A stretch of 47,186 bases of DNA, taken from Acidimicrobiaceae bacterium. GTDB taxonomy: Bacteria; Actinomycetota; Acidimicrobiia; Acidimicrobiales; RAAP-2. Position 1 is the first letter of the stretch, and each line of letters begins with the position of its first letter. The notes beneath the pieces are model-generated. The model had not been told where the DNA came from. It did no database searches and saw nothing but the letters and a program-made list of their open reading frames with translations. Made by a program: the position numbers and the translations under genes. The DNA lies in assembly GCA_003155915.1 (NCBI GenBank), contig PMFA01000028.1:1-47186 (forward strand), given 5' to 3'. This document shows, piece by piece, positions 1-18,985 of this stretch.

Positions 1-1
1 G

Positions 2-295: not shown

Positions 296-312
296 TAACA
301 CTCATCCACATT

Positions 313-2649: not shown

Positions 2650-3063
2650 ATTTAGTTGTTTGATTAAATGACGTCCACTTAATGGGACAATCAGTCCCAC
2701 GAGGACCGAGGTTGATCGGAAATGCCTCTTCAACGAGTTCCCTTCAGTGACGTCAGGGACCTTGTTGCACCCATGAATGGGAGTTGTGAGAGGTTCCATC
2801 CGAACCAAGCTGTAGATTCTCTGATCACTCTGAACTAGTGTCACAAAATTGTTCCATAAGCTGTCAAACAAAAGTCCGGACCCATGGCCTGTCGCGAGCA
2901 ATCACCCATGGACAACTGAAATTGTCGAAAGATGACTTTGACGTTTGTTCATGTAGGTGCGTGCCCGTTAGTGAGAAGCGCATGAGTCACAGCGATCCAT
3001 CGTGGCGTAAATCGATCCTGGCTACTCGTCGTCTAGGAAACGACCTTTTGTGTGCCATCATGA
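2650..3063. other. Intergenic stretch upstream of a transposase relic
   Basis: About 410 bases with no convincing gene. A 6-bp hairpin (2683-2688 with 2694-2699) lies 34 bases after the DUF268 gene but lacks a T-run, so it is a poor terminator. An open frame at 2838-3077 has no ribosome binding site and no recognisable content. The stretch may hold further decayed transposon sequence. Confidence 0.4.
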
Positions 3064-3312
3064 AATCTCGCCCGTGACGTCAAGCAACTGAAACCGCTCA
3101 ACGTCCTAGACATCTTCACCCGAGAGTACCGGGCCGTGGGGACCGCACCTTCCGTGATCGCCGACGACGTGACGACACTCGTCGTACGTCAATATATGAC
3201 CGTTACGCCGAATGAACTTGCGGTACCACGTCGAACACATACCGACGTGCGATGTGGCAATTCGTCGATACTTCAGATACTCCAGCGAAAGCTTGCACTC
3301 AACGAAGCGTGA
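3064..3312 (+). pseudogene. Relic of an IS3-type transposase (DDE core fragment)
   Basis: The plus-strand frame between stops at 3061-3063 and 3310-3312 reads LKPLNVLDIFTREYRA (from 3088), then ADDVTTLV, then THTDVRCGNSS and an LQRKLALNEA-like stretch. Order and content match the DDE core of IS3-family OrfB: the LNVxDxFTRE strand carries the first catalytic Asp, (D)ADDVVAVL is the next helix, and (x)HxRxDNGPEF carries the second catalytic Asp. Here the second motif is decayed (CGNSS in place of xDNGPE), no start codon or N-terminal half is present, and a stop cuts the frame before the third catalytic residue. It is a dead fragment, not a gene. It lies against the 3' end of the epimerase gene. 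Seen directly: the frame and motifs. The family assignment is from memory of IS3 sequences. Confidence 0.6.
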
Positions 3313-3338
3313 AGTCGCTGGACTAGCGCCATGATCGC

Positions 3339-4331
3339 TCAGGCTGAAAGTTGTGCCGCCAGTTGGTCGTAAACCCATCGATACGTCACTTCGAGTCCGT
3401 CGCGCAGATGCGTTGAAGGTTGCCATCCAAAAACTTCTTGTATCAGCGTGTTATCACTATTTCGGCCACGCACTCCTTTAGGAGCGTCAAGATCGTAGTG
3501 CCGTTCAAGAGAAACGGCCCCTATCTCCTCGACAATGTCGACCAATTGATTAATGCTGACCAACTCGGCGGAGCCGACATTCAGCGGCTCAACATAGTCG
3601 CCAGTAAGTAGTAGCAGCGTGCCCTTAAGGCAGTCATCGATGTAAGTGAAACTACGGGTTTGAAGACCATCACCCCAAATCTCTATGTCCTTGCGATCAG
3701 TTAGTTTGGCCTCAGCCACCTTGCGACAAATAGCCGCAGGCGCTTTTTCTCTGCCGCCCTGCCAAGTACCTTCCGGCCCATAGATGTTGTGATAACGCGC
3801 TATTCGGGTAGCGACACCAAAATCTTCACGAAAGTGACGGCACATCCGTTCTGAGAAGAGTTTCTCCCATCCGTATCCATCCTCCGGCATTGCCGGATAC
3901 GCGTCCGACTCCTTCAATGCGGTCACGTCGGTCTTGGTCTGATGTTCTGAGGCGTAAACACACGCCGACGATGAGTAGAAATAGCGCTCCACCTCTCCGT
4001 GTCGAGCAGCTTGAAGAAGATTCGTATTGATGAGGACGGTCAGCATGCAAAGAGCCTTGTTGTTCTCGATGAAACCCATTCCACCCATATCTGCCGCTAA
4101 GTTCACCACGTAGCGAACTCCACTAACGGCCTGATTTGCAGCGTCAATAAGCGACAAATCAGATTGAATTGCTTCCACTTGAGACGGCAATTGGTACCAC
4201 TCCTCAAGTGGCTTAATGTCAACCCCGCGCACCGACTGGTGACCAGACCGAATCAGTTCAGCCATCAGATGACCTCCGATGAATCCACCGGCTCCCGTCA
4301 CCAAGATCGTCGACTCTTTATCCAATTGCAT
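3339..4331 (-). CDS. GDP-mannose 3,5-epimerase-type NAD-dependent epimerase
   Basis: A 330-residue short-chain dehydrogenase/reductase of the extended type. It has the NAD-binding GAGGFIG (13-19), the family-typical ADMGGMGFI (80-88), SSSAC with Cys124, the catalytic YxxxK at Y153/K157 (DGYGWEKLFSERMCRHF), the block HNIYGPEGTWQGGREKAPAA with Lys196, and SFTYIDDC (227-234). Cys and Lys at these places match the acid/base pair of plant GDP-mannose 3,5-epimerase. The expected reaction is GDP-mannose to GDP-L-galactose and/or GDP-L-gulose, feeding glycan synthesis. Length is normal for the family. It is transcribed behind the GT4 gene on the same strand, 116 bases downstream. A paralogous 3' fragment lies at 7326-7481. 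A related bacterial NDP-sugar epimerase with another substrate remains possible. Confidence 0.88.
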   Translation of the reverse strand: MQLDKESTILVTGAGGFIGGHLMAELIRSGHQSVRGVDIKPLEEWYQLPSQVEAIQSDLSLIDAANQAVSGVRYVVNLAADMGGMGFIENNKALCMLTVLINTNLLQAARHGEVERYFYSSSACVYASEHQTKTDVTALKESDAYPAMPEDGYGWEKLFSERMCRHFREDFGVATRIARYHNIYGPEGTWQGGREKAPAAICRKVAEAKLTDRKDIEIWGDGLQTRSFTYIDDCLKGTLLLLTGDYVEPLNVGSAELVSINQLVDIVEEIGAVSLERHYDLDAPKGVRGRNSDNTLIQEVFGWQPSTHLRDGLEVTYRWVYDQLAAQLSA

Positions 4332-4447
4332 TCTAAAACCTCAGTTTCTAGATCAACAAGCCAATGTATACCGCGTGTTACGGAATGCTAACCATTTCAG
4401 ACATGAGTCTAAAGGTCAAGTTGGTCCATCGGTGGGTTCGGGAAACG

Positions 4448-5662
4448 TCACTTCGGTTTCCAACGAGAATCGATTGGAGTTAGTGCATCAGCAAAAATGG
4501 ACTCCCAATCCAAGCCCTTCATCATGTTGAACGCGCTAGTCCGCCGATAGTCACGCTCACGGTCGTTCTCTGAAAGTAACAAGCAGATTCCGCGAGCGAC
4601 CTCCTCGACAGTGCCTTTCACTAGGACTGCACAACCCGACTCCTCAAGCGAATCGGCATTGTACGGTACGCGGGTCATAACAATGGGAAGACCGGCAGCC
4701 AAGTAGTTTTTCAATTTGCCCGGATCAGCAAACTGTGTGAACGACTCCTCGGACTCAAGATACGTTGCAAGGCCAATGGAAGCGGAACTGAGAAGTTGCA
4801 AGACTTCGTCCTCGTCTTCGATGTATCCCGTGAATCTCACGCGATTCTCAACTCCAACGTTATGAGCCATCTCCGCTAATGCCGCTTGGTACGGTCCGCT
4901 TCCAATTACGACGAGGTCTACGTCGCTGAAAGACTCCGCGATTAGTGGTAGCGCTGCGATCACGTGTTGCAATCCTTGCTTCTCGAGTAAGTGACCGAGA
5001 AACACGAGCCGGTTCGGAAGTCGAGGCCCATTTGCGATCTCAGAATTAACTCGGACAACACCGATTTCTACAATTCTTGTGCGCTTCTGAGAGAACCTAC
5101 CAATCAGTGACCAGAAGGTACCGTGCCAGCGACCTTGGTCAATCGCGGGCGATACGTTCCATGTCTCAGTTGCGAACAGCGCTGCCACACGATCGGAAAG
5201 ATGATAGATGCCATTAAGGATGTTGTTGTCGAAGCGCTTGGGTGACCAGTCGATCACGTAGAAGATAACGCGCTTTGTGTGTTTCATTGCCCGCAACATG
5301 ATTCCGGCGATGCAGTTCAACGCGTCGACTCCGATGAAGAGGTCACTTTTAGGAGAGAATTGACGAACCCAGCGAATTGTGAGTATGACTTCTTGAAGGC
5401 GGATGACAGGTTCGGCCCCCCTCAGCAAATGCTGGCCTGTTTCGACCAGCTTTCCATCCTCGAATAGTCGGTAGCTCGACATCGCCGGCGATTCGTAGAC
5501 AAGCGGGTGAAAAATCGAAAGAACTTTCGGACATTGTTGTGTCAGATACGTTTCAAGGTGAATGGCCGGGCCAGTTCCCCTAACGTGCGTCACGATTACG
5601 GCAACGGTGCCCGACAAGAGATGCGTCGTTGCTTCTTCTGAGTTCTCAGCATCTTCGCCCAT
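4448..5662 (-). CDS. Glycosyltransferase family 4 (GT-B)
   Basis: A 404-residue GT-B glycosyltransferase. The N-terminal half carries VAVIVTHVRGTGPAIHLETYL, the first Rossmann strand and acceptor-side loop. The C-terminal half has the group-1 pattern NRLVFLGHLLEKQGLQHVI, DLVVIGSGPY, VRFTGYI, then FADPGKLKNYLAAGLPIVMT, the nucleotide-sugar binding region. The usual ExxxxxxxE signature is altered: an acidic residue and a Lys (ADPGK) stand in its place, as in GT4 subfamilies that resemble TagE/WcaI-like enzymes. Donor and acceptor are unknown. The first 14 residues are acidic and variable; ATG at 5662 was kept for lack of a better start. It is the first gene of a minus-strand pair with the epimerase. 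Confidence 0.85.
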   Translation of the reverse strand: MGEDAENSEEATTHLLSGTVAVIVTHVRGTGPAIHLETYLTQQCPKVLSIFHPLVYESPAMSSYRLFEDGKLVETGQHLLRGAEPVIRLQEVILTIRWVRQFSPKSDLFIGVDALNCIAGIMLRAMKHTKRVIFYVIDWSPKRFDNNILNGIYHLSDRVAALFATETWNVSPAIDQGRWHGTFWSLIGRFSQKRTRIVEIGVVRVNSEIANGPRLPNRLVFLGHLLEKQGLQHVIAALPLIAESFSDVDLVVIGSGPYQAALAEMAHNVGVENRVRFTGYIEDEDEVLQLLSSASIGLATYLESEESFTQFADPGKLKNYLAAGLPIVMTRVPYNADSLEESGCAVLVKGTVEEVARGICLLLSENDRERDYRRTSAFNMMKGLDWESIFADALTPIDSRWKPK

Positions 5663-5856
5663 AACTACTACGACCTAATTCGTATCGTTTTCGACGGTTG
5701 TTGCTCACTCCGAACGATCTGCATTGGAACCTCGAATCCCTCGTTTAGCGCATGTCAACGAAATAGTCGCCGAATCATAATGATTCCCAAGTCACCTTGA
5801 ACGAATGCCCAGAGGAATTGTTAGCAATCATAACAAGCGCGATTCACGTACTTTGA

Positions 5857-6261
5857 GTGGCCTTAGATCACACGCACGTTTTGAAATTGTGCTTGAAAGG
5901 GTCACAAACCTTCACTCTCGCGTCGGCGACAACCAGAACCTTTACGGGTGACATCCGCGGAAGCCCTCACCCGTATAAGAACCGACTCGCCGTTGCAACT
6001 AAGAAGGCGGCTCGAAATCTCGCGAGTTTAGACATGACCCGTCGCAAGTTCATCGCGCTACCTGGTCGTCTCACGCGTCATTCTCGAGGTCGCCTGCGGC
6101 ACACCGGTCGACTTCCAGCGCGATCAAGTTGCAAACTTCGCCGTAAGTGTGGTTCGACTCGTCCACATGTCTGTCAATCACCGAAAGAACGGCCGAGTCG
6201 TGTTCGACAAGGAGATTTCGATGACGAACCGATTGGTCATTGGACGGTCGCGGTGGATTAA
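5857..6261 (+). pseudogene. Possible transposase C-terminal relic
   Basis: An open frame of 134 codons begins at a GTG with no ribosome binding site, inside a 663-base stretch otherwise without genes (5663-6325). Its middle (about residues 48-85) reads TKKAARNLASLDMTRRKFIALPGRLTRHSR, which resembles the basic C-terminal end of IS1380-like transposases (an R-rich helix, a LxxxPxRLxRxxR motif, then an aliphatic/Pro tail). The rest has no recognisable domain and is rich in Arg and Ser, as in non-coding frames. I take it as a possible relic. It could equally be a chance open frame, so the confidence is low. Confidence 0.25.
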
Positions 6262-6325
6262 GGCGTAACCAATCAGACCCGCCGCGGTCAGAGTATCCTA
6301 CGTGGATGAACGCACAGGGGGGCGA

Positions 6326-7231
6326 ATGAAGCCACCGGAGAGTTTGGCGACCTTTGGCCGCAACGTTCATTCTCAAAACGGTGAGGATGGCATCATCGCG
6401 GAAGTTCTTCGGAGAATCAGCGAGACTCATGAGCTCAGCCGCTGGTGCGTGGAGTTCGGGGCGTGGGATGGAGTGTACCTCTCCAATACCTGCTGTCTGA
6501 TTCGCAACGAGGGCTATCACGCTGTGCTCATCGAGCCAGACCCGAAAAGATTCGCCAAGCTCTGCGAGAACTTCCCAGAGGACACGGTGATCAAGTTGAA
6601 ATCTTTTGTCGGGGTATCTGGCGAGAATTCGTTAGATTCGCTGCTTGAGCGCGCTGGCTGCCCGCGCGACGTTGATCTTGTCTCGATCGACATTGACGGT
6701 TGTGACTATCACGTCTTTGAGTCAATTCACGATTTTCAGCCGAAAATAGTTTGCATTGAGTACAACGGCACAATCCCCAATGAGGTTGATTTCGTGCAAC
6801 CCCTCGACTTTGATCTGAAGTGGGGTACCAGTGCGTCAGCGATCTGCAGAATGGCCGAAGACAAGGGCTATCTTCCGGTGGCGGTCACGGCAACTAACTT
6901 GATCTTGGTCAGGGACGACTTAGTGGAGCTTGTGGTTTCGCGGGAGTGTGCATCCCTGACAGTCCTGCGAGATGACACCGATACGCGGAACTTTATTTTT
7001 AGCGGATACGACGGCACGGTATTGACGAAGGACCCTCTGCGACTTCCCTGGCATCAGTTCACGGCGCCCCCGCAATCTATTCACGTCCTGCCACGTTGGC
7101 TGAGAAAGTACCCCGGTGACTACCGGAGATTTGAACAGGGGGCGTTTTTGCTATTTTTGGCAATCAAATCCCCAAGTCAACTGCCCTCGATCCGCGTGCT
7201 GCGCGAAACGTGGGCACGCCACTCTCGCTGA
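6326..7231 (+). CDS. FkbM-like SAM-dependent methyltransferase-fold protein
   Basis: The protein has 301 residues from ATG 6326. An in-frame GTG at 6302 would add eight residues, but the purine run AGGGGGG sits five bases before the ATG, so I prefer the ATG. Residues 14-24 (VHSQNGEDGII) and 41-50 (CVEFGAWDGV) form the SAM-binding loop pattern, followed by AVLIEPDPKRF (66-76), the acidic end of the second strand, and LVSIDIDGCDYHVFESI (118-134). This matches the FkbM-like family, in which many members O-methylate sugars. The C-terminal 100 residues are less conserved and include FIFSGYDG and a PRWLRKYPG segment. Probably modifies the glycan of this locus. Its start lies just right of a possible transposase relic. 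Confidence 0.75.
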   Translation: MKPPESLATFGRNVHSQNGEDGIIAEVLRRISETHELSRWCVEFGAWDGVYLSNTCCLIRNEGYHAVLIEPDPKRFAKLCENFPEDTVIKLKSFVGVSGENSLDSLLERAGCPRDVDLVSIDIDGCDYHVFESIHDFQPKIVCIEYNGTIPNEVDFVQPLDFDLKWGTSASAICRMAEDKGYLPVAVTATNLILVRDDLVELVVSRECASLTVLRDDTDTRNFIFSGYDGTVLTKDPLRLPWHQFTAPPQSIHVLPRWLRKYPGDYRRFEQGAFLLFLAIKSPSQLPSIRVLRETWARHSR

Positions 7232-7325
7232 CGGCACGAAGATCTAGGTCCCAGTCTGTCTACAGTTTTTGGATCACGTGGTCCACTGTGACAGCCGCTC
7301 CGATGTACACGCAATGGTTGGCGAA

Positions 7326-7481
7326 CTAGTGGGTGGTCACCTGGTCGCGGACCCAGCGGTAGGTCACCTCGAGGCCGTCTTGGATAGGGCTTGATAGCGA
7401 ACACGGTGAATGAAAAGACTTTGCTTCGTGTTGGCCGATCGATTCTCCCGCATGGTTGAGATCAGGTTTGTACCGTACTGT
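7326..7481 (-). pseudogene. 3' relic of a second epimerase gene
   Basis: The minus strand from 7397 to 7326 reads LSSPIQDGLEVTYRWVRDQVTTH then stop. This lines up with the last residues of the complete epimerase gene at 3339-4331 (THLRDGLEVTYRWVYDQLAA), including the DGLEVTYRWV core and the stop position. Further upstream (about 7460-7430) another frame reads ENRSANTKQ, similar to the GRNSDNTLI segment of the intact enzyme, so at least one frameshift separates the two pieces. No start, NAD-binding or catalytic region remains. This is the decayed tail of a paralogous NDP-sugar epimerase. The open frame on the overlapping register (7177-7404) is only a shadow. Confidence 0.6.
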
Positions 7482-7525
7482 CTAATTCTCCGTCGATCGG
7501 GCGAAAGAGATTCCAAGACATAAGA

Positions 7526-8152
7526 CTATTTGTGGGTTACGCAGATAATTGAACCGACACATGTCACGGAGCGGTCGGGGTATCGATTCAGGATAATTGA
7601 TTCAAGTTCAGTGAGTGTCGGATAGTCATTCGTTCCGTCGAAGTTGTCGGCGTCATCGATGAGAATCACATCGTCATATTGGCGCTGCAGTACCAACTCG
7701 AGTTCGCCAAGGATAGGTGTGTCAATCTCACCGCGGGCGGTGAAGCCTTTGGAGTAGTGGGCATCCAGCCAGAAGATTGCTGGCTCATTAACGGCCGCAA
7801 CCATTTTTGGCAACTCGACGGAACTGTCGCCTTGGAAGACCGAGACCTGGGCAAGCCGACGAAACCGACGTACAGCTTTGCGATACAGTTCCGGGTCGAG
7901 TTCAACGGTTAGTAACCGGTCAAAATTGCCTTCCTGTGCGTTGATCATTTCGCCGAGATAGGTTCCGGTCTCTACGAACACGCGGATACCGTGCTCTACG
8001 GCGTGGCGGCGAATGGTGAGAATCTTCGTTAGATATGGCGTAGGACCAACTCTTCCAGCGGCCTCCCAGGCTGCAAGCTCCTTGGTGCGATGGCGTCTAA
8101 GTAACACCTGACCAAGGCGCGATGACAGTAATTGACGGCGAAACTTTTGCAT
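7526..8152 (-). CDS. Class I SAM methyltransferase-fold protein, function unknown
   Basis: A 208-residue soluble protein. RVFVETGTYLGEMI (57-70) is the glycine-containing SAM loop after the first strand, LTVELDPELYRKA (81-93) gives the acidic residue after strand two, VFQGDSSVELP (105-115) is strand three, and FWLDAHYSKG (127-136) with ILIDDADNFDG supplies strand four and a metal- or substrate-facing acidic cluster. The pattern is that of small sugar-cluster methyltransferases (similar to TylF/macrocin-type or cephalosporin-hydroxylase-like families), but I cannot name the family firmly. The N-terminal 25 residues are basic and may bind membrane or nucleic acid. It reads toward the epimerase relic and ends 44 bases before it. 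Probably acts on the glycan of this region. Confidence 0.7.
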   Translation of the reverse strand: MQKFRRQLLSSRLGQVLLRRHRTKELAAWEAAGRVGPTPYLTKILTIRRHAVEHGIRVFVETGTYLGEMINAQEGNFDRLLTVELDPELYRKAVRRFRRLAQVSVFQGDSSVELPKMVAAVNEPAIFWLDAHYSKGFTARGEIDTPILGELELVLQRQYDDVILIDDADNFDGTNDYPTLTELESIILNRYPDRSVTCVGSIICVTHK

Positions 8153-8520
8153 TCAGGAAAGCCTAATAGTGAAACTTGGACATACAGGAGACCAACACTC
8201 ATTACTCAAACATCTAGAAGGTTGGAAAGCCGACACCTAGGGCCCATGTAACGCCCAGGCGACATTGCCAGCAATCAAGAGTGCCCTAAAGAGGCGTCTG
8301 ACGAAGAGTTTTAGCCATGAAGCCTCAACGTGGACTTCAGCTTCGCAAGCGGAGAACGCCCGTTCGATTCTCGTCGCTCGCCTCAAGGCTTCGAGTCAAG
8401 AACTCAATGATTAGCTTTGACGCGAATTGACTCATTTCACACTTGATTTTTCGAGGTGGCACTATCGTTCGCCGCGTTTCAGCACCGCGGCTATACGAGA
8501 TCGATTTCTGAACGGTTATT
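8153..8520. other. Intergenic stretch, no clear gene
   Basis: About 370 bases between two minus-strand genes. The minus strand holds a 46-codon open stretch (8397-8260) reading IERAFSACEAEVHVEASWLKLFV-like sequence between stops, with no ribosome binding site. It might be a decayed gene end, but no family is recognised. No terminator with a T-run was seen. Confidence 0.35.
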
Positions 8521-10689
8521 TCACGCGTCCGTTGAGAGGATGGGTTCTTCCGTAGAGGGCTCTGAATGACTCCGAGGGTGACGTCTCCGATACGTCGACC
8601 GTGTCATGGAGACGATGGGTTGACCTGCCAAAACCATGAGATACAACACGGTAATGAGACCGCCGACCGTCACCGCAAGGTTGGGGAGGAACACAACCCA
8701 GCCGGATTTGCCGCCGGTGAACTTCATTTGGGTGCCGATACCGCCGATGACTTTTTGGCTCGTAACGTCTATCCCCAAACCGATTGCGGGCGACGGTAGT
8801 TCGAACGGCGACAGAATTGAATGTCTTGAACTACTCGCGGATTGACGACGGCAGTCAACATGAATGAATCCGGCGAGAAATAGTGCGTCATTAACTTGGC
8901 AACCTTTGCCCCAAATTGGTGTTCGCACGCGCCCAGGAACATCAAACACCAACTCGGTGCCGAGGTTCTTTTCGGGCAGTCCGTCTCTTCGTAGTGACGA
9001 AACGAATCTGTTCAACAACGCTCGCTGTGATGTCGGCAATTGGATGTCAACTTCGACAATGAGACTCGTCACGCCAAGCTGGCGTGCCTGATCCACCAAA
9101 TGCGTCACGGAGGCTCTGCTTGGCGGTTCCGTTTCTAATTGCTGATCGAATGTACCCACGGAAACGTTGAGCGCTGAAATACTGGGCGATCGAACTGACG
9201 CCCCCAATAACGTCGGGTCGGACACCTCTCGATCGCTCCACACGTAATGCGTAAGTCCCGCGGGTTGAATCACGGCGTCGAGCGGCCAGTACGCAATTTC
9301 GAGTGACGTCCCTTTCGGGACCTTGCTGGATATCGCGTTATACGATGCCGGAATTTGGATGGGACGATAGGTTCCCCAGAATGCAATGAGGGAAGGTGCA
9401 CAAGCTGCAACAAGCAGGATGAATACCGCTACGTCTTTCAATAGCGCTTGTCGTGCAACTCGGGGGCGCGAGGAGTCTTCACCGTGTGCGAGCGCACGCG
9501 GCGTGACCCATAGAGCGAGAGCGATAGAAAGAGCCGCGACGAAAGGCGATGCCAATCTTGCGGGTTCTCGAGTGAGGCTTCTCAGGATGTCGTTGCCGAA
9601 GAAGGGCCACGCGCGAATCAATTTGAAAATCCAGCCGGTAGCGCCAGCGGTTCCAAACCCTAAGACGAGTCCCACGAGGATAAGGGTACGCAGCATCATT
9701 TGATGACCTGAAGCAGTGTCCAACTTCGGTTCGTGATCGAAGCCGACGGCGACATGCCAAATTGCCATGATGACAAGAACCACGACGGCGAAAGTACTAA
9801 TGGCCAATGGCAGGATTCCTGCGTATTGGGAAAGGTCGAGGTGCGGCCACCAAAAATCTCTCAGTTCCAATAGATCAGTGACGGGATGCGCACTTTGAAG
9901 AGGCGGCCCATTGCTCGAATATACGAGTGACGTTAGATGTGATGGAAAAAGAAGTGTGAATAGATAAGGACAAATCCAAAACGCGCCGACACCCAGAAAG
10001 GTGATTCCCAGCCTGCCCATCGTGCGGAGAATGCCTCGACGCCCACCTCTTCGCATGGTTGTCGCGACGATCGCGCACACGATCGCAGCCATCACCCAAC
10101 TCACCAATCCTCCGAGGAAAAGAACTGCAATCGGCAACCACAACGGTGTTTTCTCACCTTCTCGGATGCGAATCGTGCCAAGAATGAGAAGTGGAAGGAG
10201 GCAGTAGCCCGTCCAGTAATAGAAGTATCCGAAGAATTCGAGAGACCAGGGATTGAAGACAAAAAACAGTGCCGCGAGGCAGCCACCGGCGAATGTGGCG
10301 CCGAATTTCCTCGCGAGAGAGAATGCTCCTCCCGACGCGGCGGCCGTCATGAGTAACGGCACGATCTTGCTCCACGCGGCGGCGTTCAGTGGAATTCCCA
10401 AATGAGAAATCAACCAGATGACTGCCGCGAACGGTTGGAAGAAAACACCTTGCGATCCGATGTTCGAAATTCCACCCAGAAGACTGAATCCTCCAAGTGA
10501 CCACGCGGTGTCGGCGTGCAGCGACGCATCGAAAGCGGGGTCGCGCTCGAATACGTAACCGTGGCGAAGGAGCATGGGCGTCCAAAGCACCACAGCTGCG
10601 AAGATCGCCAGAGCGATTGAAGGATGTCCGACGACTCGGATTCGGAGCCGGGAAACTCGTGTCATAGTCGCATCGCGCCCAACATTCAT
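8521..10689 (-). CDS. Large polytopic membrane protein, GT-C-like
   Basis: A 722-residue integral membrane protein with about a dozen hydrophobic segments in the first 430 residues, an extracytoplasmic soluble domain (about 435-640), and a last membrane segment before a basic, Ser/Arg-rich tail. The layout and short motifs (FERDPAFDASLHADTAW early, FNPWSLEFFGYFYYWTGYCLLPL, then LRSLTREPARLASPF) resemble GT-C glycosyltransferases that use polyprenyl-phosphate sugars, and the gene at 15461 has the same plan with FNRLFVGHFALLIGYALLPF and MREPQKFLM. The acidic residues in the first loop could be catalytic. Exact activity unknown. It starts three bases after the stop of the 312-residue gene, so it is the last gene of the minus-strand operon from 15159. 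A second ATG lies at codon 9. Confidence 0.7.
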   Translation of the reverse strand: MNVGRDATMTRVSRLRIRVVGHPSIALAIFAAVVLWTPMLLRHGYVFERDPAFDASLHADTAWSLGGFSLLGGISNIGSQGVFFQPFAAVIWLISHLGIPLNAAAWSKIVPLLMTAAASGGAFSLARKFGATFAGGCLAALFFVFNPWSLEFFGYFYYWTGYCLLPLLILGTIRIREGEKTPLWLPIAVLFLGGLVSWVMAAIVCAIVATTMRRGGRRGILRTMGRLGITFLGVGAFWICPYLFTLLFPSHLTSLVYSSNGPPLQSAHPVTDLLELRDFWWPHLDLSQYAGILPLAISTFAVVVLVIMAIWHVAVGFDHEPKLDTASGHQMMLRTLILVGLVLGFGTAGATGWIFKLIRAWPFFGNDILRSLTREPARLASPFVAALSIALALWVTPRALAHGEDSSRPRVARQALLKDVAVFILLVAACAPSLIAFWGTYRPIQIPASYNAISSKVPKGTSLEIAYWPLDAVIQPAGLTHYVWSDREVSDPTLLGASVRSPSISALNVSVGTFDQQLETEPPSRASVTHLVDQARQLGVTSLIVEVDIQLPTSQRALLNRFVSSLRRDGLPEKNLGTELVFDVPGRVRTPIWGKGCQVNDALFLAGFIHVDCRRQSASSSRHSILSPFELPSPAIGLGIDVTSQKVIGGIGTQMKFTGGKSGWVVFLPNLAVTVGGLITVLYLMVLAGQPIVSMTRSTYRRRHPRSHSEPSTEEPILSTDA

Positions 10690-10692
10690 TGG

Positions 10693-11631
10693 CTACGCTG
10701 CACTGTCATAAGACTCGACAAGTCCGATCGCCGCTCGGAATTCCTGTCTCAGCGATGGTGAAGCGTCTCTAATACTGGCCTTAAAATCTCTAATTATCGC
10801 CGAACCATTACCCGATTTCTGCCATTGAAACGCTGCCTGGACTGTCATTCGCCACGAACTCGACTCATTCGTCGTCAGCATGTGCTCGCGAACCGATTTA
10901 GAAATTGCGTGGCTTTCCTCGACGAAATACTGATTGAGGCCCTCGACGAGGCCAATGGGACTCTCTATGTTGATGGAAGCTTGCACGAGCAGTTCATCTA
11001 AGTTGGCAGCAGTACCGGTCGCACCAACATTGCTTGCCCATTCCGAAGCAAGGAAATACTGCTCGTACGCAGACGGAGAGAAGTTCCGCGGCAGTTCTCG
11101 CAGGGTGGCCTCAAGCGCAGGGAGAATCAGATTGTTCTCGGACAACGAGACAGCGCTCCCCTCAATTGATGTGTTGAAGTGATTGCCACCAAGGACTTGT
11201 TCGGAAACGCTCGCTAGGAGCACTATTCCTACGAACATGGCAATAACAGAAATTTGTCGTCGTGTGGCGACATGAACGAAGATGCGATTGTCGGAATTTG
11301 TCTCTGGTTCGACATCTAGAACCGTCGAGGTGGGAGCGAGATTCGTCGAGCCAACCTCAGTTGCAACGTCGTCATTTTCGGACAATGTAATTTCCAATTT
11401 CGACCGATGCTGAACATTTAGGTACGCAATGAAGACGATAAAAATCAACGTGAGAGATGCAAATGTGTCACTCAGTCGCGATGCCCAGATATAAAAATGA
11501 CCAGAGTCAATTGTTATCGAATCAGGGAACAACGCGGCGACGGCACCTGTGGACATGCCGATCATCACGACCCAGATCGCTGTTACAGCGAGGGCCGCGA
11601 TTCGCATTCGACGCTGCGTCAAGATGTTCAA
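10693..11631 (-). CDS. Membrane protein with extracytoplasmic domain, unknown
   Basis: A 312-residue protein that I do not recognise. Three hydrophobic segments are visible: about 11-35, 50-73 and 125-143. A polar, Glu/Asp/Thr-rich loop (75-120) lies between the second and third. The last 170 residues are soluble and helical-looking, with a Trp-containing stretch (SSWRMTVQAAFQWQ) and FKASIRDASPSLRQEF. An odd number of segments and the basic N-terminus place the C-terminal domain outside. The start is a TTG preceded by AAGGA; it overlaps the stop of the 76-codon gene by four bases (TTGA), which implies translational coupling. The next gene follows after three bases. Its place between a flippase-glycosyltransferase fusion and a GT-C-like protein suggests an accessory role in glycan export. 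Confidence 0.65.
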   Translation of the reverse strand: MNILTQRRMRIAALAVTAIWVVMIGMSTGAVAALFPDSITIDSGHFYIWASRLSDTFASLTLIFIVFIAYLNVQHRSKLEITLSENDDVATEVGSTNLAPTSTVLDVEPETNSDNRIFVHVATRRQISVIAMFVGIVLLASVSEQVLGGNHFNTSIEGSAVSLSENNLILPALEATLRELPRNFSPSAYEQYFLASEWASNVGATGTAANLDELLVQASINIESPIGLVEGLNQYFVEESHAISKSVREHMLTTNESSSWRMTVQAAFQWQKSGNGSAIIRDFKASIRDASPSLRQEFRAAIGLVESYDSAA

Positions 11632-11858
11632 GTAATCCTTGGACGTACGCGCCTCATCTCCGCGACAGCGTTACGCGCGCGCCGCGAATAATCGTTTACG
11701 AAACTTCGATCCAAGTGCTGCGTCAACGATGCGTCCGAGTCCTCCCTATCAACGGGCTCTGGCACCGAGGACTGCGGTGGCAATCCGACATTTAGCATCG
11801 ATTTTCCATTTAGAACACCTGTCCGGACTGGGAGACGACTAGTCATCACGTGGACCAT
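11628..11858 (-). CDS. Small basic protein, unknown
   Basis: A 76-residue frame beginning at ATG 11858, 16 bases after the stop of the large fusion gene, and ending in a TGA that overlaps the TTG start of the next gene by four bases (TTGA). That arrangement supports a real, coupled gene in the operon. The sequence is hydrophilic: a short N-terminal part with a few Met/Val, a Pro/Ser/Asp-rich middle, and a basic C-terminal third (YSRRARNAVAEMRRVRPR). No membrane segment, cysteine pair or known motif. The ribosome binding site is weak (GAG about 15 bases upstream). It could also be a decayed remnant of a larger reading frame, so certainty is moderate. Confidence 0.45.
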   Translation of the reverse strand: MVHVMTSRLPVRTGVLNGKSMLNVGLPPQSSVPEPVDREDSDASLTQHLDRSFVNDYSRRARNAVAEMRRVRPRIT

Positions 11859-11874
11859 AATCGTTGGGCTCAAT

Positions 11875-14800
11875 CTACGCCCGGTCATTTGGCACTCCAA
11901 GGATTGTCGTGACGGATGAATTGACCATGGTGTTTGCGGGCAGAGCATCTGCATCCGTCTCTAAAAGAATTCTCCGAGCGACGTCCTCCCACGGGATAAC
12001 CCCCTTCGGAGAAATGGCTGGTAGTCCGTCGCGTAGCCAGATTTCGAGCGTCTCGCGGAGAGTTTTAGCCAGTTGTTTCGGATTGGCCGCGGTGAGAACA
12101 CCCTCAGATGCAAGAACAGAATCTCGGAGACCGGCTACGTCGTAGGTAACCGAAGGCGTCCCGACCGAAGCAGCTTCGGAAACGACGAGCCCCCAACCCT
12201 CTCGCACTGACGTCGCGATGAGTACGTGCGCTCGTGCAAGTCGCTCCAGTTTCTTGGCGGGTGGCACTTTTCCAAGAAAGACCACGCCTTCAGGAGCCAT
12301 TCGGCGTAGGTCATCCTCCATGGGGCCAGAACCAATTATCCACATGACGGCATCCGGCATGCTCTCCTGAAGAATTTCAAATGCGCGAATGGCTTCGTCA
12401 GGTCTCTTATGTGACTCGAGTCGCCCGACAAAAATGACTGTTGGCCGAGACTCGCGTGGGACATTCGGATGCGTGCTCAACGGGTTCTGACCAATTGGAA
12501 CGACAACGATTCGCTTGAGGCCATACGCCTCAAGCGACTCTCTGCTCGACTGCGAGATCGTCACGGTGGGTATATCGCGATACGCGCGCAGCCACTTTGG
12601 CTCAAGCCAATATCTACCAACTGTCGACACCGGAAATGGCATCTGGTAGGACCAGAGTTCCCGGCAAACTTGGAACGTGAGAGCGATGACCGGCGCATCA
12701 TCGACCCATTTTGGAGTTAGGAATGGACGAGTGTTCACTTCGTCGATTATCAGATCGAACTTGCCACGGCCTTCCTCAAGGTAGAAGCGCATCGCTTCGC
12801 GGTAGACGCTGTATTGAGTACCGCGTCGAATGATGTGAACGCCGCCAATTTTCTGGTTTGCCGGTCTGCCTTCGACCGAAGCACAAAAGAGCGATACGTC
12901 GTGACCCGCTCGCACCCACTCTCGGGCAACGTTATTGGTGTAAATTTCGGCGCCGCCTGCTTTTGGATGCGCCAGATCCCGCCACGTGAAGATAAGTATT
13001 CTCAATGGCCGAGCATTGGGAACTGAACTCGGTGGTCCTTGCGGGACTGACTCGTGGAATTCCTCATCAGAACTTGATTCAAAAAGTAGTGACTCGTCGG
13101 GGTTCTTCTCATGATCCCGGTCGTAGAAGCGAAGGATCCGAAGTCGATAGAAGATGGCGAGTGTGTCAATGAGCATGGCGAACGCAGAACGTACTGAGAT
13201 TGCACTACCAAAACGATGATCAATTCTCACGGGCATTTCAATGAAGTTCCGAAAGCCTTGCTTACGGGCCACGACGAACAACTCAAGGTCGAAAGCGTAG
13301 CGCTTCTCAATCATGAGAGGCAGCGCAATGGAAAGAACATCTCGCCGGATGATTTTCACACCAGTTTGAGTATCTCGAATCGGCAATCCGAACAACGTCC
13401 GATTGATTTGTTGATAACCCCATGAATACAATCGCCGGAGGGGCGGATATGAGACCACGGATCGCGGATGTCGTTTGCTCCCGAAAACTATGTCCGGTTG
13501 CTCTCGACGAATGATGTCCAGGAAGTCAGTCAATACGTCGGCCGGAATGTCACCGTCTCCTTCAATAAAGCCGAGATATTCGCCACGCCCCAACGCGAGT
13601 CCTGCCCGCAACGTAGCCGCCTTTCCTTGAACTAGGTCAAGGTGAACGAACCTGAGGTGGTCCGTGGAGAGCGCCGCCAGCTGGTCGTGACCTGGTCCGG
13701 TACTTTTATCGGAAACCACAATAACTTCGTACGTGATTCCCGATTTTGAAAGCGTCTCCACGACGTCGCCAATATGGCTTCCGAAGTGGGTGCCACGGTC
13801 ATAGAACGGTACGACCAATGTGAGATCGAGATCAGCGGGACTCAATTCGCCCAGCGTTTCACCAATTTCAGCCTCGTGTGATGAAGCTCTCGCCAACGCG
13901 ATCAACGCCGGAATGCCCGTCGCAAATACTGTTAGCACGCTGATAATCAACATGATCACCGCGACTGACGTCATACTCTGATGTCGCAGGGAGATCAAAA
14001 TGATGGCCAATCCGACTCCAAGCCACGGCGTCAGCGCTACTAGTGAGCGGCGCGCCAGATGCAAATACACAAAGAGGCTCAAGATGCCTATCGCTGCAGA
14101 GGCGAAAGCCAAAGGACCAACAATTGAAATCGTGCTGATGTATTTTGAGCCGAAGAGTACGTGTACGACGAGGCTCGAGAAAACGGTGAGCGTGCCAGCG
14201 GTCAAAATGCCGACAAATGTTGTGATCTTGAGGGCTTGGATGAAGACTCTGCGGCTCTCAACACTGGTTCCACGCCCGCTCGCCCAATGTGGAAACGCAA
14301 TGGTGACGATGGCGCCGGGTACAAACAACGCGATATGTGCTGCGACTGCTCCTGCGGCGTATCGACCAGCGACGGTGGCGGAGAAAAAGTGACGGGCGAG
14401 AAAGGTGTCAACGCCGATGAAAGTGGTGTAACTGGCAAGGGACGCAACTGATAACAACATGTCGCGTCGCTTCGCACGTACCACAGATCCCCCTGGGTGG
14501 CTACGAACTTTATGGCGGGCCGAGAAAATCAATGAGCCAGTGACAAATGCTTGGGCTCCAATAGTGGCGATGATTGCGCCCGAAACGCCGAAACCGGCGG
14601 CGACCATCGCGGCACCGAACAACAGACGTATTAGTCCGCCCCCTACGAAGGTGGCGAAGGCCACCGCGCGAAAGCGGTACTCGCCGATGAGCGAACCTTG
14701 CAAAACTGCGCCTACGGTTGCCAGAGGAATCCACGCGCTCACGAGAAGAAGTGGGACCGGTGAACCGATATGCAAGAACCCGTCAATTAGAGGGGTCAAT

Positions 14801-15159
14801 GAGGCAAACGCCATTTCGGCGATGACGCCAAGGACAATCGCACGCCAAATCAGCCTGCTGAGTGAGAATGACTCATCGTTCTCAGTATGAGCAATCACTG
14901 CCTGCGTCACCGCAAGTTGCGCCGCGCCAACAGGTACGGTGAGCAAACTGAGAATGCTCAGAATCGCACCGACGGCTCCGTAGTGTGCTGGACCCAGTAA
15001 GCGACTAATGACGATATGGAAGAGGAAGTTCGAAACGTTCACGCCGGCCGTCGCAAACAAAAACGATACGGCACCTCGACTGAGAATTCCCGAAGAAAGC
15101 TGGGACCAAATTGCAGCAACCCGCTGGCGCGGAGAATGTCGCAATCGGGTTTCCATCAT
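11875..15159 (-). CDS. Flippase - GT2 - GT4 three-domain fusion
   Basis: A 1094-residue single chain of three units. Residues 1 to about 425 are a polytopic MOP-superfamily flippase (Wzx-like), starting RGAVSFLFATAGVNVSNFLF and ISRLLGPAHYGAVGAI, with about twelve membrane segments. Residues about 443-680 are a GT-A family 2 transferase (LVVPFYD, EVIVVSDKS, DGD at 535-537, FGSKRHPRS, QTGVKIIRR), resembling dolichol-phosphate-mannose synthase-like enzymes. Residues about 718-1094 are a GT-B family 4 transferase (FTWRDLAHPKAGGAEIY, VFVGRLESHKRPDEAI, and E987-x7-E995 in REGWGLVVSEA). The frame is uninterrupted across both junctions. The start is ATG 15159 or the adjacent ATG 15156, each with GGAGGGGG upstream; a TTG at 15210 would add 17 residues without a site. 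It heads a minus-strand operon. Likely couples lipid-linked sugar synthesis to export. Confidence 0.85.
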   Translation of the reverse strand: MMETRLRHSPRQRVAAIWSQLSSGILSRGAVSFLFATAGVNVSNFLFHIVISRLLGPAHYGAVGAILSILSLLTVPVGAAQLAVTQAVIAHTENDESFSLSRLIWRAIVLGVIAEMAFASLTPLIDGFLHIGSPVPLLLVSAWIPLATVGAVLQGSLIGEYRFRAVAFATFVGGGLIRLLFGAAMVAAGFGVSGAIIATIGAQAFVTGSLIFSARHKVRSHPGGSVVRAKRRDMLLSVASLASYTTFIGVDTFLARHFFSATVAGRYAAGAVAAHIALFVPGAIVTIAFPHWASGRGTSVESRRVFIQALKITTFVGILTAGTLTVFSSLVVHVLFGSKYISTISIVGPLAFASAAIGILSLFVYLHLARRSLVALTPWLGVGLAIILISLRHQSMTSVAVIMLIISVLTVFATGIPALIALARASSHEAEIGETLGELSPADLDLTLVVPFYDRGTHFGSHIGDVVETLSKSGITYEVIVVSDKSTGPGHDQLAALSTDHLRFVHLDLVQGKAATLRAGLALGRGEYLGFIEGDGDIPADVLTDFLDIIRREQPDIVFGSKRHPRSVVSYPPLRRLYSWGYQQINRTLFGLPIRDTQTGVKIIRRDVLSIALPLMIEKRYAFDLELFVVARKQGFRNFIEMPVRIDHRFGSAISVRSAFAMLIDTLAIFYRLRILRFYDRDHEKNPDESLLFESSSDEEFHESVPQGPPSSVPNARPLRILIFTWRDLAHPKAGGAEIYTNNVAREWVRAGHDVSLFCASVEGRPANQKIGGVHIIRRGTQYSVYREAMRFYLEEGRGKFDLIIDEVNTRPFLTPKWVDDAPVIALTFQVCRELWSYQMPFPVSTVGRYWLEPKWLRAYRDIPTVTISQSSRESLEAYGLKRIVVVPIGQNPLSTHPNVPRESRPTVIFVGRLESHKRPDEAIRAFEILQESMPDAVMWIIGSGPMEDDLRRMAPEGVVFLGKVPPAKKLERLARAHVLIATSVREGWGLVVSEAASVGTPSVTYDVAGLRDSVLASEGVLTAANPKQLAKTLRETLEIWLRDGLPAISPKGVIPWEDVARRILLETDADALPANTMVNSSVTTILGVPNDRA

Positions 15160-15460
15160 GCCCCCTCCAACCAGGAAAAAGTCTGGCCAATTCGCAGTTG
15201 TGAATTTCAAAAAATTCTAACAAGAAACCACAACAAGAACTCCCAGTTTGAAGTGAATGATGAACCAGCGATTGGCCACACGCTGCCAACTCTCACTCCG
15301 CCCCGTGACCATATCGTCAGATTTCGTTGCAATGGCTCGGCCTTATTTCTGGATCGTTGCCATTGCGGACAAGGATTATTGTCCGAAGATGGGGTGGAAG
15401 TTGAATCGTGAAGTTACGGGCGTCGACGCCAAGGCTGATGGTATGAGATGCCCTCGGAAG
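15160..15460. other. Divergent intergenic region
   Basis: Separates the minus-strand fusion operon from the plus-strand GT-C-like gene, so promoters for both should lie here. The part at 15205-15260 is AT-rich. The plus-strand frame is open back to 15257 (ATG ATG), which would add 68 residues to the GT-C-like protein, but that extension has no ribosome binding site and looks non-membrane and non-conserved. No clear -35/-10 pair can be asserted. Confidence 0.4.
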
Positions 15461-17701
15461 ATGACGAGTCAACGGATTTCACAAATGCTGCGTCACCCCG
15501 ATGCCGCAACCCTGATTCTCGGATTAGTCATTGGCCTTGGCGTGTGCGCACCTTTACTCGGCGGCGGTCGGCTGTTCCTTCTGGACTGGACCGTCGGACC
15601 TCATGACGCGATCGCCACCCCTGCGGCCTTAGGTCTCAATGGGGGTCTCACGACCGGTATCGGCGGATCCGTCATCTTCGCAATACTGAACAACGTTTTT
15701 GGCAGTGCGTCAACGTGGCTACCGATGCTGGCGTTTTTTCCGATTGCCACCGTTGGGGCGGGGCGCCTCGCCGGCCGGTCACGATGGTCGCGCTGTGCGG
15801 CGGGAACGCTGTACGCGGTCAATCCGTTCGTCTTCAATCGTCTCTTCGTAGGTCACTTCGCTCTCCTCATCGGCTACGCCCTCTTGCCCTTCGCCGTCAA
15901 AGCTGCCATTCGCTCGCTTTCATCGCGGGGCCTGCGATGGTGCGTGCCGGCACTGTGGTGGGCGGGGCTCACGTCGCTGAGTCCCCACTTCGCATGGATC
16001 TACGGCCTCGTCGTTCTCGGCGTCGCGATAGTTGCCGTATCAACCAAGCAACATCCATTACGTCGTGTGACTGGATGGTTCGCGACGTGCGTGGGTGCAT
16101 TCGCGCTCATGAGCACATACATCATTTTGCCGAACGGTTCGACCAATTTGTCCACGCAAATCGGATCGGTCAGTCTCAATCTTTATAGGACCAATGGCGA
16201 TCCACATTTGGGGCTCTTCGCAAACGTGCTGGCCTTGTACGGTTTCTGGCGAACTGGCCCCGGTCCCGAACTCCCCAAAGACGTCATCATCGGATGGCCG
16301 TTCATTATGTTCGCGATTCTCGTGATCGTCGGTGTCGGGGCCTGGTACGCATTGCGACGGATTCCGGTGAAGGGCGAAGCGACGGACTCCACGAGCGAGA
16401 CTGAAGGGGAGAGTACGACGGGTCAATCGTTAGGCCCAACGACGACCTCGATCGCCGTCGATGAGACGGTCAACCAGTCGAACGCCGTCGATCAACGAAG
16501 GCTGGCGATTCTGCTCGTCTTCGTCGGCGTGGCGGGGTACTTCTTGGCGCTCGGCAATCAGGGACCGACCGGTGGGTTGTTCTTGTGGGCCTATGACCAC
16601 GTGCCCTTCTTCTCGATCATGCGAGAACCTCAGAAGTTCCTCATGCTGCTCGCTCTGGCGTACGCGATTCTTTTCGGTTGGGGAGTTGAACGACTGTCAC
16701 AAGTCGACGTATCTCCGACAAAAGTCGGTGCGGCTGCAACTGCGGCGCTTATTGGCGTGGTTCTTCCACTCGGCTACTGCGCCACCATTTTCGACGGATT
16801 GGCGGGGCAGGTCACCTCCAGTCCGTTGCCACCGGCGTACCAGCGCGCCGATGCCCTGATGGGCACGGGCACGGGAAACATCCTCGTCCTGCCGTGGCAC
16901 ATATATATGGAGTATCCCTTCACCAGTGGTCGAGTGATAGCGAACGTCGGGCCAACGTCGTTTCGACGAAACGTGATCTCGGGGGACAACGTCCAAGCCG
17001 ATGACGTCCAGACGCAATCGACATCTCCTCGCTCCGCGTACCTACAGCAGTTGTTCCTCAATGGCAGCAAGACGAATAATTTCGGAGCGCTCGTGGCTCC
17101 ATTGGGGGTGCGGTACGTCGTGCTCTCCAAGGCGGTGGACTGGCCTGCCTACAGTTGGCTCAACCACCAAAAGGACCTCAAACTCGTACTCGATGACCAA
17201 TCGCTCGAAGTGTGGCGCAACGTCGCGTATAGGGGCGTTGGTCAACGAGTCACGAAGTTGACTTCGGTCTCGGGAATCGCTGGGCTACTCTCACTCGCCA
17301 AATTGAACGAACTCGGGGCCGGAGCCGTGGTGAGGAGCGAAAGTGCACCTGGTGTCGCCACCTCGGTACCCGGGGTCACGAGTTCGCCCGCGTCAACGAC
17401 GCTTCCGTCCGTCCGGCAACTGTCGCCGGTGGCGTATCGAATTTCTTCAGGCACGCCGGGTTGGGTGACCGTCGACACCACCTACCAACGCGGTTGGTCC
17501 TTTGACGGCCACGCGGCGAAGGCGACCGCCGAGGGCACCGTCCTCGTCCGTGTGGGCGCCCAAGGTGGAGTCCTCGAATATACGCCCTGGCGATTGGTCC
17601 GCCTCGGCTACATCATTTCGGCCGGCACTTTCGTCGCACTTGCACTCGTCCTCATTGTCGAACCGCGACGACGAAAGAGAACTCGCGTTCGCGTGCGTTA
17701 G
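15461..17701 (+). CDS. Large polytopic membrane protein, GT-C/YfhO-like
   Basis: 746 residues from ATG 15461; ATG 15443 or 15257 in the same frame are alternatives and no start has a strong ribosome binding site. The first 430 residues hold ten or more membrane segments, with LDWTVGPHDAIATP in the first external loop, YAVNPFVFNRLFVGHFALLIGYALLPF, LSPHFAWIY, and PFFSIMREPQKFLMLLALAYA. A Thr/Ser/Glu-rich cytoplasmic-looking loop (about 305-340) interrupts them. A long extracytoplasmic part (about 460-720) contains VLPWHIYMEYPF and RNVISGDN, and a final membrane segment ends in a basic tail. The plan is shared with the gene at 8521 and with YfhO-like GT-C proteins that transfer sugars from undecaprenyl phosphate. 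Substrate unknown. It is the last gene before the housekeeping block and is already as GC-rich as that block. Confidence 0.72.
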   Translation: MTSQRISQMLRHPDAATLILGLVIGLGVCAPLLGGGRLFLLDWTVGPHDAIATPAALGLNGGLTTGIGGSVIFAILNNVFGSASTWLPMLAFFPIATVGAGRLAGRSRWSRCAAGTLYAVNPFVFNRLFVGHFALLIGYALLPFAVKAAIRSLSSRGLRWCVPALWWAGLTSLSPHFAWIYGLVVLGVAIVAVSTKQHPLRRVTGWFATCVGAFALMSTYIILPNGSTNLSTQIGSVSLNLYRTNGDPHLGLFANVLALYGFWRTGPGPELPKDVIIGWPFIMFAILVIVGVGAWYALRRIPVKGEATDSTSETEGESTTGQSLGPTTTSIAVDETVNQSNAVDQRRLAILLVFVGVAGYFLALGNQGPTGGLFLWAYDHVPFFSIMREPQKFLMLLALAYAILFGWGVERLSQVDVSPTKVGAAATAALIGVVLPLGYCATIFDGLAGQVTSSPLPPAYQRADALMGTGTGNILVLPWHIYMEYPFTSGRVIANVGPTSFRRNVISGDNVQADDVQTQSTSPRSAYLQQLFLNGSKTNNFGALVAPLGVRYVVLSKAVDWPAYSWLNHQKDLKLVLDDQSLEVWRNVAYRGVGQRVTKLTSVSGIAGLLSLAKLNELGAGAVVRSESAPGVATSVPGVTSSPASTTLPSVRQLSPVAYRISSGTPGWVTVDTTYQRGWSFDGHAAKATAEGTVLVRVGAQGGVLEYTPWRLVRLGYIISAGTFVALALVLIVEPRRRKRTRVRVR

Positions 17702-17953
17702 TTCCGATCCTTGGCTGGAGATCGGTTGAAGGCTGCGGGACTCTTCTGGTCGTGAAGAGGGCAACGATTGATCCTTTGCGGGACCGGGCATTCGTTGACT
17801 CGCGTTTTCCCTTGCGAAAAGGGATTTTCCGTGATCTGGCACACTGCAGAAGGCAACGCCTCGTGAATGAGTAGGTCTAGTGGCCTTAAGTACGTCCGGT
17901 GTCCTAGCCTTATAGGAGAAGAGGGCATCGTCGTCACTACTTAAAGGGTCTTT

Positions 17954-18985
17954 ATGGTTGATAGTCGTTTCTCGCTTTTGGGTCGTGATATGGCGGTTGA
18001 CCTCGGAACTGCGAACACGCTGGTCTACGTGCGCGGCCGCGGCATCGTCTTGAACGAGCCCTCCGTGGTTGCCGTCGACGTCAAGGACGGAAAGCCGCTC
18101 GCCGTAGGCGCCGAGGCCAAGCGCATGATCGGTCGTACCCCGAGCAACATCCAGGCCATCCGGCCCTTGAAGGACGGCGTGATCGCGGACTTCGAGATCT
18201 GCGAGAAGATGTTGCGCTACTTCATCCACCGCGTCCACCAACGTCGCTTCGCGAAACCGCGCATGGTGATCTGCGTGCCGTCGGGTATCACGGGCGTCGA
18301 ACAGCGTGCCGTCATGGAAGCGGCCGAGTTCGCCGGCGCGCGCAAGGCCTACATCATCGAAGAGCCGATGGCCGCCGCGATCGGTGCCGGTCTGCCGATT
18401 CACGAACCGACCGGCAACATGGTCGTGGACATCGGTGGTGGTACGACGGAGGTCGCCGTCATCTCTCTCGGTGGCATCGTGACGAGTCAGTCGATTCGCG
18501 TCGGCGGTGACGAACTCGACGAGGCATTGATCGCCTACGTGAAAAAAGAGTTCCAGTTGGCGCTCGGTGAGAGAACCGCTGAAGAGATCAAGATCCAACT
18601 GGGTTCGGCCTACCCGCTCGAAGAGGAGTTGCGCGCCGAGATTCGTGGTCGTGACCTCGTGACGGGCCTCCCTAAGACGGTCATAATCTCGACCGAGCAG
18701 ATTCGCAAGGCCATGGAAGAGCCGGTGCAGGCAATCGTCGACGCCGTGAAGGTGACGCTCGATCGCACGCCGCCGGAACTTTCGTCGGACCTCATGGAAC
18801 AGGGAATCGTCCTGACCGGTGGCGGAGCGTTGCTCGCGGGCATCGCGGCGCGACTCGAGTACGAGACGAACATGCCCATCATCGTGGCGAACGACCCACT
18901 CAACTGCGTGGCGTTAGGAAGCGGCATGTGCCTCGAAGAACTCGACGTCTTCGCGCGCATGTTGAAGACCAGTCCCACGCGCTAA
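17954..18985 (+). CDS. mreB: Rod shape-determining protein MreB
   Basis: A 343-residue bacterial actin that polymerises under the membrane and organises lateral peptidoglycan synthesis. Visible actin-fold motifs are [13 protein letters not shown] (phosphate 1), [20 protein letters not shown], the phosphate 2 loop [30 protein letters not shown], and the adenosine motif [13 protein letters not shown]. Full family length. ATG 17954 begins [18 protein letters not shown], typical of MreB. The 250 bases upstream hold no gene and should contain the operon promoter. It is followed three bases later by mreC, then mreD and mrdA, so all four act in one elongation complex. Its presence argues for a rod-shaped cell and against apical-growing lineages that lost mreB. 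Confidence 0.98.

Follow-up and report, generated by a model that had tools for sequence, protein, structure and literature searches.

A flippase-GT2-GT4 fusion gene

The 47,186 nt sequence analysed here (contig PMFA01000028.1, assembly GCA_003155915.1, an Acidimicrobiaceae bacterium; referred to in its whole length as the window) carries a gene (nt 11875–15159, minus strand) in which a MOP/Wzx-type flippase, a family 2 glycosyltransferase (GT2) and a family 4 glycosyltransferase (GT4) are joined in one complete chain of 1094 aa. It is a genuine fusion. The minus-strand frame is open from a TTG at nt 15210 down to the stop codon that ends at nt 11875 (1111 aa plus stop), and the ATG at nt 15159, which yields the 1094 aa product, is preceded by GGAGGGGG, including GGAGG. 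An earlier annotation of this DNA (the original prediction) had described an uninterrupted 1094-residue frame at these positions; its length and frame stand, with the gene placed on the minus strand; a plus-strand reading of the interval meets many stops and was rejected. Neither domain junction contains a stop or frameshift in the window.

The three domains, in the order originally proposed, are recovered both by Pfam matches above the curated cut-offs (Polysacc_synt_3, residues 50–343; Glycos_transf_2, 448–609; Glyco_transf_4, 735–890; Glycos_transf_1, 901–1039) and in an AlphaFold2 model of the whole chain, built from 55 sequences, with a mean per-residue confidence (pLDDT) of 88.4 and a predicted TM score (pTM) of 0.69. 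Compared with its 85%-identical relative at locus L112 (loci and genomes carry L and G numbers), the gene shows NG86 dN/dS ratios of 0.085 for the flippase, 0.096 for GT2 and 0.089 for GT4 (dS 0.78–0.95), values that indicate purifying selection on all three domains, and the linkers change faster than the domains. Promoter-like and terminator-like sites within nt 11500–15600 were no more numerous than in shuffled sequences. The top row of a Foldseek search with the whole chain, the capsule-synthesis multienzyme 8qoy (E 8.7e-12), was rejected as a protein of the same architecture on account of its TM score of 0.24–0.26 and root mean square deviation of 26.

Distribution of the fusion

Among 99 genomes of the genus to which the window belongs, with up to seven candidates scored per genome, a match at E 1e-60 or better was found in 20, and nine carry a three-domain gene: G000, G451 (85% identity to the window), G445 (66%), G449 (63%), G464 (52%), G473 (43%), G011 (43%), G010 (54%, split across two contig ends) and G035, which is 60% identical over the flippase and GT2 and has a GT4 of another subfamily. 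At this last locus (L035/L121) the GT4 module has been exchanged for one of a different subfamily, with the flippase and GT2 still ~60% identical. Genome G354 encodes a flippase-GT2 protein (706 aa) and a GT4 (387 aa) in two overlapping open reading frames (ORFs).

A second scan covered the best 80 of 218 relatives among named genomes, and these loci were pooled with those of the genus, class and phylum. Two further scans scored no more than two candidates in the rows listed. After removal of duplicates (copies of loci already present under their record names, and L125, whose GT2 is the same as that of L122 or a part of it) there remained 93 distinct GT2 rows. With a flippase in the same ORF called at a 60-bit cut, 14 of these are flippase-GT2-GT4 chains by profile, and L121, whose GT4 scores 39 bits in the GT4 profile, is a fifteenth by Pfam; 25 are flippase-GT2 chains, and 53 have no flippase in the same ORF, three of them with flippase and GT4 as neighbouring genes. 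The rows called solo include some with a long N-terminus of unassigned nature and loci whose flanks are truncated where the contig ends. The 15 three-domain chains are non-identical and come from 15 assemblies, so that the fusion is not peculiar to the present one; the original prediction had named as fatal a fusion seen in this assembly alone, with stops or frame breaks in relatives. Ten of them, from ten assemblies, are complete ORFs with the same domain order and intact frames (the window, L112, L113, L114, L115, L116, L121, L123, L086 and L088), as the original prediction had anticipated for a real fusion; that of L116 starts near the first residues of the flippase profile, and its N terminus is slightly short. 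Another four run into the end of their contig (L117, L118, L119, L122), and the gene at L120 (nt 7956–11251) has a frame break inside GT4, either a sequencing error or decay.

By record title, the relatives are mostly metagenome-assembled genomes of Acidimicrobiaceae, Acidimicrobiales and unplaced Actinomycetes, together with one Streptosporangiaceae and two Acidobacteria. The Acidobacteria titles (L121 and L123, both apparently from the genus of the window) are probably wrong, as is the title Bifidobacterium breve of L184, which is apparently from the class of the window. No report of a flippase-glycosyltransferase fusion of this kind was found in the titles and abstract openings of the open-licence PMC papers that full-text searches listed.

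Domain structure

The flippase domain (residues ~20–437, nt 13849–15102) scores 63.3 bits against PF13440 (cut-off 23) and forms a bundle of 12 helices between residues 30 and 437, by our own count on the model. Its best structural match is the lipid III flippase WzxE (Z 33.8, 3.2 Å over 383 residues), with MATE transporters at Z ~32, and both sequence family and fold thus place it in the MOP superfamily. A search of its profile against the PDB returned no match at E 0.1 or less. At the other end of the chain, GT4 (residues 716–1073, nt 11941–13014) has a GT-B fold and the EX7E motif of its family, to which the E987 and E995 of the original prediction correctly belong; its structural matches are sucrose-phosphate synthase (Z 32.6), MshA (Z 31.9) and BshA (Z 31.1). 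It is attached to GT2 by a mostly disordered linker of about 30 residues (686–715, nt 13015–13104), with pLDDT below 50 over most of residues 681–712.

The GT2 domain has a GT-A fold (residues 444–685, nt 13105–13830) and begins in the model only about six residues past the last flippase transmembrane helix. Its nearest solved relatives are polyprenyl-phosphate glycosyltransferases. A single-sequence search of solved structures gave six relatives, among them GtrB (4e-7), 9jma (1.9e-4) and DPMS (3.9e-4), and a profile search gave GtrB (1.1e-23), DPMS (8e-22), chondroitin synthase (3.6e-21) and ArnC (7e-18), chondroitin synthase thus ranking between DPMS and ArnC; in the Foldseek list for this part, ArnC, GtrB and DPMS stand at ranks 30, 41 and 43. 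By sequence and fold the domain is therefore closest to GtrB, DPMS and ArnC. Each GtrB protomer has two membrane helices (PMC4728340). The GT2 modelled here has no transmembrane helices of its own, and a moderately hydrophobic helix lies at residues 652–675; the flippase would, on this model, serve as its transmembrane anchor.

The DxD region of GT2 (residues 533–537, nt 13549–13563) reads E-G-D-G-D, where the family mostly has D-[AG]-D-G-D. The letters DGD do stand at residues 535–537, as noted in the original prediction, but in the alignment the canonical DxD falls at 533–535, which in the window is E-G-D; the wider family has the DxD, with aspartate at 533 in 91 of the 93 rows. While the GT2 of the window appears GtrB/DPMS-like, its own activity is uncertain, because near-invariant positions are substituted (see below) despite strong purifying selection.

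Split forms and history of the fusion

Relatives with three separate genes, which the original prediction regarded as counting against the fusion, do exist, in three of the 93 GT2 rows, all of them distantly related. A separate GT4 gene lies directly behind flippase-GT2 in 12 of the 25 two-domain rows, and in five rows (L127, L149; L150, L091, L094) the two genes overlap by 1 or 4 bases. The three-domain label requires five changes on the GT2 tree, and also five if enforcement is limited to the starred branches, or six if the four-part rows described below are merged into it; on the flippase tree it requires six, or five enforced. For the GT2 tree L184 was labelled flippase-GT2 on 56 bits, below the 60-bit cut, and L119 three-domain though it is probably four-part. 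More than once a two-domain chain is the sister of three-domain chains (L127 of L122; L126, on a contig that stops 124 bases past the gene, of L115/L120), and the fusion was therefore gained or lost repeatedly.

In L036 (G011) and L088 (G473) the fused flippase is only ~28–30% identical to that of the window, as against ~39–40% for a separate neighbouring flippase and ~53–54% for GT2 and GT4; judging from these identities, the flippase module either evolves fast or was replaced. Flippase-GT4 fusions also occur, divergently oriented beside flippase-GT2 fusions (L135, nt 4859–7594; L136, nt 2491–4950; L137, nt 7950–10388), so that these loci hold two different flippases, each with its own transferase. 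In L091, L093 and L130 the flippase-GT2 ORFs start with N-terminal stretches of 500–600 aa (39% identity between two of them) that were rejected as extra domains: they are most likely shadow ORFs, since a divergent MmpA-like gene occupies the same bases on the opposite strand, and they could be mis-annotated as fusions.

Four-part chains and GT-C-like neighbours

In two relatives the frame does not close after GT4, and the chain runs on into a large polytopic protein that resembles the GT-C glycosyltransferase AftD (L116, nt 5446–11850, 2134 aa; L118, nt 3–5636, 1877 aa). An AftD-like profile matches L116 at residues 1082–2126 with 1382 bits, L116 having been in the training set of the profile, and L118 at 1204–1798 with 584 bits. 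In pairwise BLAST the L116 tail is related to separate neighbouring genes at L087 (34% over 915 residues) and L043 (43% over 930). The tail of L119, cut by the contig end, matches the L116 junction (53% over 51 residues), so that L119 is probably a third four-part chain. Two of six separate homologues or tails, L035 and L087, pass the Pfam cut-off for GT-C_AftD (26 bits; L087 scores 39); Pfam gave no family for the other four (the L116 tail, L088, L043 and L086), nor for the tails of the whole L116 and L118 chains.

A GT-C-like match (AftD-like or MmpA-like profiles) in the same chain or within 6 kb was found for 9 of 13 three-domain rows, both four-part rows, 15 of 26 flippase-GT2 rows, two of the three rows with three separate genes, and 5 of the 49 solo rows. 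For fused against solo rows this gives 26/41 vs 5/49 (Fisher p 1.2e-7), with the proviso that related rows are not independent and flank lengths differ.

In the window the candidate GT-C partner, proposed from sequence, is a divergent polytopic neighbour of up to 814 aa (nt 15257–17701, plus strand), whose real start is probably downstream. It is MmpA-like (154.5 bits against the NCBIfam MmpA model, cut-off 210), and a homologue adjoins the fusion in several relatives. In the nearest relative (L084, nt 7115–9315) the MmpA-like neighbour appears as two ORFs on account of a stretch that reads X in translation (unknown bases), and not through any demonstrated frameshift. Downstream of the fusion, on the minus strand, are two genes without Pfam matches, for a 722 aa polytopic protein (nt 8521–10689), from its position a possible membrane partner, and for a membrane protein of 312 aa (nt 10693–11631).

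Genomic setting

The fusion is the only PF13440 match in the genome. Other glycosyltransferase and sugar-nucleotide genes lie at nt 857–5662. The glycan cluster (nt 1–18000) has a G+C content of 0.50–0.58, compared with ~0.61–0.68 for most of nt 18000–47186, and ends beside ORFs that by eye resemble mreB (nt 17954–18985), mreC and a penicillin-binding protein. Another contig of the genome (L205, nt 1572–4838) holds a 1088 aa ORF that, again by eye, has a GT2 start followed by an extended hydrophobic stretch resembling GT-C; further glycan enzymes thus seem to be fused in this genome.

Proposed mechanism and alternatives

The reading that we favour, with somewhat better than even confidence, is a one-chain scheme drawn from the sequences. 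GT2, on the cytosolic face and anchored by the flippase, would charge polyprenyl phosphate with a first sugar, GT4 would add a second sugar to this lipid-linked sugar, the flippase would carry the product across to the outer leaflet, and there a GT-C protein (part of the chain in L116 and L118, a separate neighbour in the window) would pass the glycan on to an acceptor in the envelope. Being fused would give GT2 its anchor, set the parts in a constant ratio and let the lipid go straight from enzyme to flippase. The original idea of two sugar transfers at the mouth of the flippase needs refining: the GT2 is nearest to polyprenyl-phosphate sugar synthases and starts about six residues past the last helix, whereas GT4 hangs on a mostly disordered linker, and the GT2 of the window is itself substituted. 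Physical coupling of synthesis and export is plausible, the more so in view of the four-part chains, and the recurrence of the fusion together with its GT-C extension suggests that sugar loading and export are carried out by one machine. A wider proposal, to which we would give rather less than even weight, is that in soil Acidimicrobiales-like bacteria the whole lipid-linked glycosylation pathway (prime, extend, flip, transfer) was fused stepwise into chains of up to 2134 residues, that the glycolipid passes directly from GT2 to the flippase, and that polyprenyl-monophosphate sugars have MOP proteins as their export partner in these Actinomycetota.

Several observations weigh against the one-chain scheme. 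The lists of solved GT2 relatives include chondroitin synthase and 9jma, a glucosyltransferase acting on a diphosphate-linked lipid. In the window, GT2 has D454, R455, K485, G488 and E533 where the family has N (90/93), P (72/93), G (91/93), D (91/93) and D (91/93); the sister L112 keeps N454 but is likewise changed at 455, 485 (as E), 488 and 533. Two GtrA-type matches elsewhere in the genome are candidate flippases. The GT-C candidate of the window has no Pfam match, falls below the MmpA cut-off and has a model pLDDT of 52, and its profile found no PDB chain at E 1 or less. As to the GT-C association, the training sets of the profiles contained 9 of the 11 three- and four-part rows that scored positive, compared with L124 alone among the flippase-GT2 rows.

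The fusion might instead serve a classical Wzx pathway, in which another enzyme primes an undecaprenyl-diphosphate oligosaccharide, GT2 and GT4 supply its inner sugars, the Wzx domain flips the finished repeat unit, and the units are then linked by a polymerase on the outside. In fold the flippase is indeed closest to WzxE, which carries a diphosphate-linked oligosaccharide, extension by GT4 suits an oligosaccharide, glycosyltransferase and sugar-nucleotide genes are nearby, and 9jma, among the six solved GT2 relatives from the single-sequence search, acts on a diphosphate-linked lipid. However, the best solved relatives, GtrB in both searches and DPMS in the profile search, act on lipid monophosphate, and GT-C-like proteins often accompany the fusion. 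Furthermore, no PF02397 priming transferase was found in the genome, which is 95.65% complete (TagO/WecA-type primers and Wzy were not sought), and this mildly favours priming by GT2. We regard the classical pathway as rather unlikely.

It is less probable still that in the window and L112 GT2 has lost its transferase role and is now a spacer or regulator between flippase and GT4, with flipping and the GT4 step remaining. This would account for the changes at 485, 488 and 533, seen in these two alone among the 93 rows, and at 454, seen in the window and one other row. The dN/dS of GT2, similar to that of the other two domains, speaks against this reading, as do D484, D535, D537, D596, D624 and E626, all of them retained; moreover, the PfDPMS residue aligned with 533 is described as no metal ligand, and its alanine variant as retaining residual activity (PMC5526996). 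As for an assembly or annotation artefact that joined separate genes, the parts are separate genes in some relatives and the L120 frame is broken within GT4, but such separate-gene and split relatives point to a labile fusion. An artefact is scarcely credible given that ten assemblies each hold a complete and unbroken ORF, among them that of an 85%-identical relative with purifying selection in all three domains.

Comparison with known systems

The favoured scheme, with its division of labour among GT2, flippase and GT-C, resembles the GtrA/GtcA-GtrB/CsbB-YfhO systems, in which, as described in PMC7389260, the flippase is a small GtrA-type protein and not a MOP protein. In mycobacterial Ppm1 a polyprenyl-phosphate sugar synthase is fused behind a membrane domain in one species and encoded by two operon ORFs elsewhere, but that domain has six segments and is not described as a flippase in PMC3485146. 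A MATE-fold protein beside a polyprenyl-phosphate sugar synthase is also found in Mycobacterium tuberculosis (Rv3630, MATE-like; Rv3631 PpgS, a GT2; Rv3632, a putative flippase; PMC8562490, PMC9671496, PMC3485146); there the genes are separate, their adjacency is taken from locus numbers, and the likeness is drawn from the published descriptions. The flippase for the PpgS lipid is called unidentified in PMC9671496, as are the flippases for polyprenyl-phosphate sugars of several envelope pathways there and in PMC11754754. If the wider proposal above is true, MOP proteins would fill this export role in these Actinomycetota. Since a natural fusion ties a flippase to an enzyme, a single purified protein would serve to examine both substrate and coupling, with the split and fused relatives as ready-made controls.

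Close parallels are the lactococcal Wps (WpsA/WpsB, WpsC, the Wzx-type WpsG and the GT-C WpsJ) and streptococcal Gac (GacI/GacJ/GacK/GacL) systems, in which, according to PMC10821137 and PMC8035078, a GT2 working with a membrane partner makes the sugar-phosphate-prenol, a Wzx-type flippase exports it and a GT-C enzyme transfers the sugar; in the lactococcal case, cytoplasmic glycosyltransferases extend the sugar-phosphate-prenol. Unlike the chain described here, in which the flippase lies upstream of GT2 and is fused to it together with GT4 and sometimes GT-C, these are separate proteins, and the partner of GT2 is GacJ or WpsB. Natural GacJ-GacI and constructed WpsB-WpsA fusions have the membrane protein N-terminal to GT2, the same order as here, and of the two orders made for the lactococcal fusions the active one had the membrane part first (PMC10821137). 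The partner in those fusions is a three-helix membrane protein, not a flippase, and neither GT4 nor GT-C is part of them as described in that report. From this comparison we infer that the fusion chain would represent the lactococcal Wps/streptococcal Gac scheme in a single polypeptide.

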